From an uncultured Armatimonadota bacterium (GTDB taxonomy: Bacteria > Armatimonadota > Armatimonadia > Armatimonadales > Armatimonadaceae), in contig CAIVZM010000071.1 of the NCBI GenBank assembly GCA_903910385.1, positions 1-53,724 on the forward strand: a DNA stretch of 53,724 nucleotides, given 5' to 3'. Numbering within the stretch: the stretch's first letter is position 1; every line of letters starts with the position of its first letter. This document shows positions 29,512 through 42,167 of the stretch, in pieces. A model generated the notes under the pieces. The model saw only the letters and a list, made by a program, of their open reading frames with translations. It ran no database searches and was not told where the DNA came from. A program made the position numbers and the translations under genes.

Positions 29512-29562
29512 CTCAGGGAAACGCTTCGCGTCTCAATACGTCGGGGCTTTCCTGATGGCGAC

Positions 29563-29592
29563 GCCTTCTTCACGTTGGAGAGGGCTTTTTTT
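29563..29592 (+). terminator. Intrinsic terminator of the TPP riboswitch expression platform
   Basis: GCCTTCTTC (29563-29571) pairs over 9 bp (two G-U pairs) with GGAGAGGGC (29577-29585) around ACGTT, and seven T follow (29586-29592). It stands between the aptamer and the first gene, the usual place for termination control in response to TPP. Confidence 0.85.
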
Positions 29593-29671
29593 ATTGCCCG
29601 ATCCAATGATGGCGAAGGTGCGGCTCCCTGTTCCGTTTTCCGTAACTGCGGGCGCACGGAAAGACTCTGTC

Positions 29672-30478
29672 ATGAAGGAAAATAGCGCATTTTCGTCACG
29701 TCATCGCCATGCGTTTACGTTAATCGAACTGCTCGTCGTCATAGCGATAATCGCCATACTCGCCGCCATCCTGTTTCCTGTTTTCGCTCAGGCGCGGGAA
29801 AAGGCGCGTGAGGTCACCTGCCTTTCTAATATGCGGCAAATCGGTCTGGCGGTTCGAATGTATGTGCAGGACTCCGATGAAATCTGGCCCATTTTTTATG
29901 CCTATAACACCCAGCCACCGGCTGACATAGCCGACCATAAAGGCGTCGAGGTGTTACTGATGCCGTATGTCAAGCAAAAGGATGCCTTCCGTTGCCCCGA
30001 CGATTTCGGCGGGCCAATTCCCGCCAACACGGAAAGCGGCGTCGACTACGGCGGTTGTAAGGATATTCCCGGTAAAGCGGGTTCCTACCGTGATTGTTAT
30101 GGCTCTTCCTACCGCTTCACTCGCGGCGCGTTCAGCACGATTGAGAACGAATCGCGCCAGAATAATGTTCTGTGTAATGCAGACAATCCTTATTGCCCAC
30201 CGAGCGGCCCGGTGGGGGACAGCGCCTTTGAACGCCCCTCGGAAACACGGATTTTACGGGACGAAATGTTGCCCTGGTTCGGGGGCGATGCTGATAGCAA
30301 CGGCGCGAAGTACGGGTACTATCCCGATTACTATCGGCAGTGGCATCCCCGTGGCGGAAGCTTCGTTTTTGCGGACGGTCATGCGAAATTTGTCACCTCT
30401 GTGACGACGTTTGATACGATGTTTGTCACGCCAGACGGTCAGAAGACGTTCGCGAACTCTGGATGGGCATACGACTGA
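29672..30478 (+). CDS. Type IV pilin-like (prepilin-type, HX9DG motif) protein
   Basis: A 268-residue pseudopilin. A class III signal is clear: a basic leader (SSRHRHA) cut before Phe15, with Glu at position +5 (FTLIE), then a hydrophobic helix ending [10 protein letters not shown]. The C-terminus has the H-x9-D-G motif ([14 protein letters not shown]). Members are probably processed by prepilin peptidase and anchored or assembled on the envelope; their role is unknown. Start chosen at ATG 29672; the frame is open upstream to 29555 but that overlaps the terminator. It is the first gene behind the TPP riboswitch, with thiamine pyrophosphokinase following on the same strand. Confidence 0.92.
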
Positions 30479-38331: not shown

Positions 38332-38403
38332 TGGGCGGTAAGGGATTCGAACCCCTGACATCTTCCGTGTGAAGGAAGCGCTCTACCACTGAGCCAACCG
38401 CCC
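38332..38403 (-). tRNA. tRNA-Val (anticodon CAC)
   Basis: On the minus strand GGGCGGTTGGCTCAGTGGTA opens a cloverleaf with acceptor stem GGGCGGT/ACCGCCC. The anticodon arm is CTTCC-TTCACAC-GGAAG with CAC at positions 34-36, the T arm is CAGGGGTTCGAATCCCTTA-like, and A73 is the discriminator base. CCA is not encoded. It is transcribed against the flanking ylxP and channel genes. Confidence 0.95.
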
Positions 38404-38456
38404 GAGGGTGATAACATTATACGCGGCTCCTCGCGGGCTGTCAAGCGGAGGTAGAT

Positions 38457-39581
38457 GTGTGGAGTAAAGCGTACAGTCTCATTTTTATAGGTTTGTGGTG
38501 GATTCTGTCAGTCTCAGTGGTATGGGGGCAGGAAACGTCCGCACCCGTAAAAATTGACGCCCCAGTCAACCTCACGGTAGCGACGCGTGATGTCCCACCT
38601 TTTGTTTTCGAGGAAAAGGGAAAACTGACCGGGTTCAGTATAGAACTCTGGCAAGCCATCGCGGATGACCTGCAGTGGAAATATTCCCTGAAGCGCGAGG
38701 AAACGATTGGCGCATTGCTGAGCGCAGTGCAGAGCGGAAAGGCGCAACTGGGCATCGCGGCGATTTCTATCACTGCCGAACGCGGGAAAACCTTCGATTT
38801 CTCCCAACCGATTTATGATGGCGGTCTGCAGATCATGGTGCGCGTCAAGGAGCGTAGCGCAGGAGCGGCGTTTCTGGATTATCTCCTCAATTTTTTCAAC
38901 CCGAATGTTCTTGGATTGCTGGGGACGATGCTACTGCTGATTTTGATCGCTGCACATATTATCTGGTTGCTGGAGCGAGGCATCGCCGATGAGGGCATGA
39001 TTGAGACAAAGCGATACTTCCCTGGTATTTTCAAAGCCTTCTGGTGGGCAGCGGCGACTCTGGGCGCACAGGCGGATGAAATGCCAAAGTCGTACGCGGC
39101 ACGGACGGTAGCAGTCCTCTGGATGTTTACCAGTATCTTCTTCGTCGCTTATTTTACGGCGCAGTTAACATCTGACTTGACCGTGCGGCGTCTGGAAGGC
39201 GCTATCAATGGTCCGGAAGATCTGCCGGGAAAGAGAGTGGCGACAACGGCAGGAAGCACGGCGGAAGCTTATCTCAAGAATCATGGTGTCAAGGTTACCA
39301 GCGTAGAACATATCGAGGACGCTTATAAAGAACTGGAAAACGGTAATGTGGAGGCAGTAGTCTTCGATTCGCCGGTACTGCTATACTATGCCGCGCATGA
39401 TGGCAAAGGAAAAGTGGATACAGTTGGTCAGGTCTTTAAGAAAGAAGCGTACGGCATCGTCTTTCCGCCCGCTTCCAGATTCCGTCGTCCGATTAATGAG
39501 TCGCTGTTGCATTTAAGGGAAAACGGAACGTATGATGCCATCTACAACAAATGGTTCAGTCCTCCGGACAATTCGCAATAA
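38457..39581 (+). CDS. Prokaryotic ionotropic glutamate receptor-like ligand-gated channel
   Basis: A 374-residue protein: signal peptide (1-24), first half of a periplasmic ligand-binding domain (about 38-130), membrane helix (about 150-173), re-entrant pore helix (about 190-205), second membrane helix (about 215-236), then the second half of the binding domain (about 250-368). This split order is that of GluR0-type receptors. Arg109 (TAERGKTFDFS) and Asp304 (VVFDSP) match the residues that hold an amino acid ligand's carboxyl and amino groups. At the filter the potassium motif TVGYGD is replaced by TLGAQAD (201-207). Start is GTG 38457 with GGAGGT a few bases upstream. A single transporter-binding protein is ruled out by the internal membrane segments. 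Confidence 0.85.
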   Translation: MWSKAYSLIFIGLWWILSVSVVWGQETSAPVKIDAPVNLTVATRDVPPFVFEEKGKLTGFSIELWQAIADDLQWKYSLKREETIGALLSAVQSGKAQLGIAAISITAERGKTFDFSQPIYDGGLQIMVRVKERSAGAAFLDYLLNFFNPNVLGLLGTMLLLILIAAHIIWLLERGIADEGMIETKRYFPGIFKAFWWAAATLGAQADEMPKSYAARTVAVLWMFTSIFFVAYFTAQLTSDLTVRRLEGAINGPEDLPGKRVATTAGSTAEAYLKNHGVKVTSVEHIEDAYKELENGNVEAVVFDSPVLLYYAAHDGKGKVDTVGQVFKKEAYGIVFPPASRFRRPINESLLHLRENGTYDAIYNKWFSPPDNSQ

Positions 39582-40964: not shown

Positions 40965-41987
40965 CTAAATGTCAGGTGTCCAGGACGGGAAGTAGACAGT
41001 GGTCGATTCGCCGCTCGGTTTGGAAACGGACTCTCCTGCTGGGACGTTTTCGCAACGCTCCGCATACTTGAGCTTCATTGCTTTGACATGACCATCGCAG
41101 AAGCCAAAGGTGGCGAATCCCTGAAGATTGGGGTTCTTCTCGACGCGCTCAGAATCTGAGCCCGTATAATTTCCGCTCCCACCCTTATGGATATAGCGAG
41201 TCCAACCTACCCCTCCGCCCCAGAACGGTTCACAGGCGTTGCCGGGAATACCGCCTGGCCAGACGCCGCCATTGCCTAACCCATCGCTAAGGGACTGATC
41301 CCAGCCCCAGGCGCTCTCTGAGGCGAAAAGAATGACTTCGGAAGGACGTTTGATAGCGGAAAGCCGTCCACGAGCGGCGCTCCCGCGCATATTGAAGCTG
41401 GAACTCCAGTAGCCATTCCAGTCAATAACGAAGATATTGACTGCCATCTGACCAAGCGAGTTGTAGTAGAGGGCTTCTTTTGATTTGTCATAGGGACCGC
41501 CCCAGTTGACGCCATTCGGGTGAGAAACCGTTGCAGCCCAGTTCGATGGACCGATAGACGGACAGATGCTGACTTGAACGTTCTTGATATACGGCTGAAG
41601 AGCGCCGAAGAACATGGCGCCTTCGGAATCTTTGAGACCGTTTTTGGACAGGGTCATATCTCCCCAGTCCGGGGTATCGACCGGCGTTCCTTTATGATAG
41701 AAATCTTCGCCATAGTAGGCGGAGCCATTGTTGTCGAAACGGGGAAACGTTTCGTCATAGTCCTGCGAGTACATCATGGCGGCAAGGGCTACCTGCTTGG
41801 CGTTACTGACGCAGGAAGTTTGACGGGCGGAATCACGCGCCTGTGCAAAAACCGGGAAAAGTATCGCGGCAAGAATCGCTATAATTGCAATAACGACGAG
41901 CAATTCGATGAGCGTAAAGGCGCTCGTTTTACGCTGAGAGGGCGTCGAACCCACATATGAATGTTGTGGATAATAGGAATCAGGCAT
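40965..41987 (-). CDS. Type IV pilin-like (prepilin-type) protein
   Basis: A 340-residue pseudopilin. The leader ends SQRKTSA and is cut before Phe24, with FTLIELL and Glu at +5; the hydrophobic helix ends [10 protein letters not shown]. The mature head has a C-terminal [10 protein letters not shown] segment typical of the same family as the pilin-like protein at 29672, which shares nearly the same first 35 residues but differs beyond. A perfect AAGGAG stands seven bases before the ATG at 41987; the longer frame to 42026 is not needed. Probably exported through the prepilin peptidase route. Function unknown. Confidence 0.93.
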
Positions 41988-42167
41988 TGTATTACTCCTT
42001 ACTTGATAAGCTCGCCCACAGCGCACTGAAGATGGCGGCGTACAGCGCTGTCGATTTTCCTCACCGATCTTATGGGAGAAATATGACTCTGTATGCTACG
42101 TCACCAACGTTTCGTGTATAGCGTGACATTATCAATGTGATCAATGTGACACATGATGTTTTAAATG

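Follow-up and report, generated by a model that had tools for sequence, protein, structure and literature searches.

A bacterial homologue of ionotropic glutamate receptors with a non-GYG pore loop: a putative amino-acid-gated channel in an Armatimonadota genome

The window, by which we mean the whole stretch of 53,724 nucleotides that was analysed, carries at 38457–39581 a gene whose product has the domains of a bacterial glutamate receptor and a pore loop in which no potassium filter is recognisable. The question that this locus raises is whether such a protein is a ligand-gated channel, and if so which ligand and which ions it is likely to use. The features of the gene and its product are as follows.

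38447–38451, forward strand: ribosome-binding site GGAGG, read directly, 5 nt 5′ of the GTG start
38457–39581, forward strand: homologue of ionotropic glutamate receptors (iGluRs), 374 aa, GTG start (translation, Pfam)
38457–38531, forward strand: signal-peptide-like N-terminus, residues 1–25, MWSKAYSLIFIGLWWILSVSVVWGQ (hydropathy)
38571–38855, forward strand: S1 half of the ligand-binding domain, residues 39–133, with S104 and R109 (SBP_bac_3 / Lig_chan-Glu_bd; 2PYY alignment)
38901–38984, forward strand: M1 transmembrane helix, about residues 149–176 (hydropathy peak at 151–169; profile alignment to GluA1 M1)
39027–39068, forward strand: pore (M2) helix, about residues 191–204 (GluA1/GluK2 pore-helix alignment; also in a low-confidence model)
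39057–39086, forward strand: filter TLGAQADEMP, residues 201–210, in place of TVGYGD (alignment with 29 relatives)
39093–39182, forward strand: M3 inner helix, about residues 213–242, in which AYFTAQLTSDLT matches SYTANLAAFLT (alignment, profile, hydropathy)
39195–39560, forward strand: S2 half of the ligand-binding domain, residues 247–368, with S267, T268 and D304 (Pfam; 2PYY alignment)

The reading frame is a genuine gene, the only Lig_chan gene of its source genome, and the strand opposite it is interrupted by many stops. As judged from its sequence, the product is a member of the iGluR superfamily, with a pore module set between S1 and S2, a ligand pocket, and an iGluR-like pore loop and M3 gate, these last two being assigned through homology rather than structure. 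Two Pfam domains score above their gathering thresholds, SBP_bac_3, which is split over residues 39–368 (2e-29), and Lig_chan, which is nested within it at residues 158–261 (9e-16); an ABC-permease domain was sought with Pfam in the 374-aa protein and is absent. Hydropathy marks a signal-like segment at residues 5–23, M1 at 151–169 and M3 at 217–235, with no M4 or any other helix beyond M3 and S2. Three proposals of the first-pass annotation are borne out here: the GluR0-type domain order, seen in the split of SBP_bac_3 around Lig_chan and in the positions of M1 and M3; the pocket residues Arg109 and Asp304; and the lack of a further transmembrane segment after the pore and S2.

The pocket points to the probable ligand. 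The best solved match to the protein is 2PYY (3e-70), the Nostoc punctiforme (NpGluR0) core with L-glutamate described by Lee et al. 2008 (cited in PMC8786288). Around S104, R109, S267/T268 and D304 the two proteins have identical motifs, and L-glutamate or a near analogue is therefore the likely ligand. A kinship with plain transporter-binding proteins would, according to the first-pass annotation, have spoken against a channel; the nearest solved relative is instead the ligand core of a glutamate receptor. Of the 29 relatives that share its filter type, described below, 28 retain R109 and 26 retain D304, and S104, S267 and T268 are largely conserved. The divergent cyanobacterial members L121, L067 and L124 have a proline at the D304 position, and therefore the ligand may vary within the group.

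Several patterns emerge from the filter. First, all 29 of these receptors, here called Q-filter receptors, fit the consensus T-L-[GA]-[AT]-Q-A-[DE]-E-M-P, in which L202, Q205, M209 and P210 are invariant (29/29). Secondly, the strictest conservation outside the pocket lies in the pore loop, where W, Q, M and P do not vary, and the conservation of filter and pocket is, on these alignments, far beyond chance. Thirdly, every member has a loop two residues shorter than that of GYG relatives, as counted between the conserved WW and P, so that the filter is not a residue-for-residue replacement. The earlier description of a change from TVGYGD to TLGAQAD is thus correct in that GYG is absent, but not as a one-for-one substitution; similarly, the filter is indeed replaced, but this is the common state of 29 receptors and not a peculiarity of one protein.

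The Q-filter receptors have a well-defined distribution. Lig_chan is found above cut-off in nine of 291 Armatimonadota genomes, all nine with the Q-type filter, and 20 further Q-filter receptors are cyanobacterial, comprising 18 from a 291-genome sample together with L060 and L067, the latter a gene on plasmid pA of Kovacikia minuta. None of the 22 readable matches in the samples of Alphaproteobacteria (240 genomes) and Desulfobacterota (247 genomes) has a Q filter, GYG and other filters being present instead, and the viral contigs contained no further relatives. When a tree is built from S1-M1-P-M3-S2 with the filter columns removed, all 29 Q-filter sequences form a single clade (100/99), whose nearest neighbours are GYG-type cyanobacterial receptors (97/92 for the Q clade plus nine GYG rows). 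With GYG-type receptors as its nearest neighbours, the Q clade implies a single change of filter type on this tree, which is not rooted as to direction.

The wider family is varied in its own right. In three cyanobacterial genomes (G497, G354 and G306) a GYG-type receptor (L095, L096 and L097) is preceded by an OpuAC glycine-betaine binding domain at the N-terminus of a single frame of 731–807 aa (OpuAC in L096, Pfam 2.6e-44); this second binding domain is ordered like the eukaryotic ATD and comes from a different binding-protein family. Ten relatives (L069–L075, L200, L202 and L210) have filters that are neither GYG nor Q, for example VATSGKSPSRKN and ITKGPFNYFEF; L069, L070, L072, L073 and L075 are on plasmids of Paracoccus, Devosia, Salmonella, Roseibium and Chelatococcus, L071 and L074 are from Vibrionaceae, and where these relatives are annotated it is only as 'transporter substrate-binding domain-containing protein'. 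An alphaproteobacterial locus (G723:C64:4293-9448) has three nearby receptor-like genes (L159, L180 and L181) with the filters ALNEAGD, VLNEAGD and TSENVVD.

Comparisons with solved pores indicate what the altered loop most resembles. A search with the 116-residue pore alone gives eukaryotic glutamate receptors only among the matches listed (GluA2 8.5e-7, GluK2 4e-6), and with a profile of 22 Q-filter pores the best 60 chains are all AMPA receptors, from 1.5e-11, with no K+ channel among those 60. For a profile built from 16 GYG-type pores, the first matches are K+ channels, from 2.7e-16. The likeness to non-selective animal receptors suggested by the first-pass annotation therefore holds for the pore, in both the pore search and the profile. 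In the HMM alignment Q205 lies opposite the residue after the Q/R site and D207 opposite the '+4' acid, with a one-residue gap in between. The +4 acidic residue is widespread in iGluRs (PMC12226733). With the filters masked, the mean scores against GluA1 and KvAP are 93 and 63 for Q-type pores and 78 and 53 for GYG-type pores, and 27 of 31 GYG-type relatives score nearer to GluA1 than to KvAP; because GYG-type pores also favour GluA1 once masked, the AMPA likeness is partly a matter of shared scaffold, and is stronger in the Q clade. A pore-only tree leaves GluA1 and GluK2 without placement. It lends no support to a sister relationship between the Q clade and the animal receptors, although a clade of these two with the Q receptors is not rejected (p-AU 0.119).

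Taken together, the signal-like N-terminus, the S1-M1-P-M3-S2 order, the amino-acid pocket, the pore homologous to those of AMPA and kainate receptors, and the membership of the clade are established from sequence, and we propose that the protein is a prokaryotic iGluR of non-GYG type, a periplasmic amino-acid-gated tetrameric cation channel without K+ selectivity whose ligand is probably L-glutamate; we give this reading a probability of roughly two in three. Four subunits would assemble in the inner membrane with their binding domains facing the periplasm, and L-glutamate or a related amino acid would shut the clamshell, whose closure would tug on the M3-S2 linkers and open the gate at AYFTAQLT. 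With no carbonyl-lined TVGYG ladder, the pore may let through Na+, K+ and perhaps Ca2+ with little discrimination, which is the least certain of these steps; the conserved Q205 and an acidic D207/E208 ring may take the roles that the Q+1 and '+4' acidic positions have in animal receptors. Opening on external amino acid would depolarise the cell. An AlphaFold2 monomer model made from four sequences has a mean pLDDT of 48.9 and a pTM of 0.34, and its helices at 149–176, 191–204 and 213–242 fit a pore loop, but carry no weight at pLDDT 49; because the model is unusable, the tetrameric pore is proposed on homology.

To go from 'no GYG' to 'non-selective' is reasonable on these alignments, and it is at this point that the strongest rival departs, namely that the protein is an amino-acid-gated channel that is still selective for K+ or otherwise for monovalent ions, the altered loop being a different filter that still selects. 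According to PMC3483616, sequence alone does not predict selectivity, since AvGluR1 conducts Na+ despite its K+ signature, and this uncoupling, together with the place of the Q clade among GYG-type receptors and the clear homology of the Q and GYG pore profiles (hhalign 100%), lends the rival some credit. Against it, the K+-coordinating T-V-G-Y-G ladder is missing and the loop shortened in 29 of 29 members, and the Q-pore profile reaches AMPA receptors rather than K+ channels; we consider a retained selectivity unlikely. In the open-access literature, which the search covered, no electrophysiology or conduction data for NpGluR0 or any Q-filter receptor were found.

The surroundings of the gene bear on a second rival, in which the protein is a sensor or binding protein anchored in the membrane, its pore a non-conducting remnant, or else an odd transport-binding protein. 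The flanking features are as follows.

33734: nusA, upstream of the channel gene
between nusA and infB in the upstream gene order: short YlxR-like ORF
35633: infB, upstream, recognised from sequence
37863: DUF503 gene, upstream
38332–38403, reverse strand: tRNA-Val (CAC)
38416–38444, reverse strand: sigma-70-type promoter of the tRNA-Val gene, 12/12 consensus, ending 12 bases before the channel start codon
downstream of the channel gene: phytanoyl-CoA-dioxygenase-like gene

No ABC-transport genes are present among the window genes scanned, those flanking the channel gene included, and no neighbour family is conserved across 23 related loci, in which the ORFs that are widely shared amount to no more than shadows of the channel gene itself, antisense or in another frame. 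Four cyanobacterial loci that are close relatives are syntenic with one another, and there is synteny too among L033, L034 and L154. The channel gene appears to work alone. No promoter of its own is evident. Elsewhere in the window, two prepilin-like proteins are encoded at 29555–30478 (forward strand) and 40965–42026 (reverse strand), recognised by their N-termini, the second also matching Pfam N_methyl and DUF1559.

The binding-protein reading would agree with the NCBI annotation of such relatives as 'transporter substrate-binding domain-containing protein', and we know of no functional data for the clade. An ABC-transport binding protein was nevertheless rejected, since the protein lacks a permease domain, the scanned neighbours include no ABC genes and the related loci share no conserved neighbour family; a pore remnant also sits poorly with a pore loop that is the strictest-kept part outside the pocket and with an M3 gate like that of iGluRs, and we regard both forms of this rival as improbable. 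A pore opened by amino acids that is anion- or proton-coupled, or permeable to water or solutes, is very improbable. The filter resembles none whose selectivity has been measured, and a possible anion permeability is discussed for the pores of plant GLRs (PMC11479355), but the conserved acidic D207/E208 immediately after the filter would favour cations.

The amino-acid-gated, non-K+-selective cation channel is thus the reading that we carry forward, and it bears on how these receptors arose. Accounts of receptor evolution run from the K+-selective bacterial GluR0 to the non-selective animal receptors, and we know of no measured intermediate. The Q-filter clade joins an AMPA-like pore to a glutamate pocket of which a relative is solved, in a simple bacterial body of two helices, and its selectivity bears on whether loss of the K+ filter preceded the eukaryotic receptors, as well as on the role of an amino-acid-gated channel in a bacterium. 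One could speculate that the clade is a surviving bacterial example of the animal-type pore, not selective for K+ and possibly permeable to Ca2+, the switch from K+-selective to non-selective having occurred once in bacteria, with the animal filter descending from that switch or repeating it, although we think this doubtful.

Among known systems the closest is NpGluR0 (2PYY), of which the binding core alone is solved. It shares the pocket motifs AISITAER, VATTAGSTA and VVFD.PVLL with the 374-aa protein and is about 50–60% identical to it in the binding core. The cyanobacterial L115, a Q-clade member with the filter TLATQADEMP, is 88–93% identical to 2PYY, which on this ground belongs to the same clade; the NpGluR0 filter is therefore probably A-T-Q, as in L115, compared with G-A-Q in the 374-aa protein.

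GluR0 (Synechocystis slr1257; PDB 1II5) and the Group 1 receptors have the same domain order, with two transmembrane helices and a pore loop and no M4. GluR0 is K+-selective, with the K+ filter TVGYGD, whereas the 374-aa protein has TLGAQADEMP in a loop shorter by two residues than the loops of the GYG relatives compared, and lacking TVGYGD it falls outside Group 1 with its K+-selective filter. The AMPA and kainate receptors (GluA1, GluA2 and GluK2) are homologous to it over M1-P-M3 (profile 1.5e-11), and share the Q and the acid aligned with Q/R+1 and +4 as well as YTA..LTV at the gate. Animal and plant iGluRs have an ATD and M4, and the 374-aa protein, with neither, is not of that type; compared with AMPA and kainate receptors it also has no C-terminal domain, its loop is one residue shorter, and the bacterial proteins have A or T at the Q/R site.

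The published group that it fits is that of Ger et al. 2010, who described ten 'Group 2' prokaryotic receptors with the same topology, no K+ filter and conserved Arg and Asp, proposed the name 'putative glutamate-sensitive ion channel', and reported that Group 2 retrieves human receptors better than the GYG group does (PMC2950845). The 374-aa protein shares with Group 2 the S1-M1-P-M3-S2 order and the pocket residues Arg and Asp, and likewise has no K+ filter that can be recognised; it so has the defining features of the group as described in PMC2950845. Because Group 2 is defined only by a missing K+ filter, its bounds may be wider than those of the Q clade. Groups 1 and 2 were placed in cyanobacteria and proteobacteria, and Armatimonadota are not mentioned in the sections consulted (PMC2950845). 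Receptors of Group 2 type have been in print since 2010, and the gene at 38457–39581 adds to them a member from the Armatimonadota.
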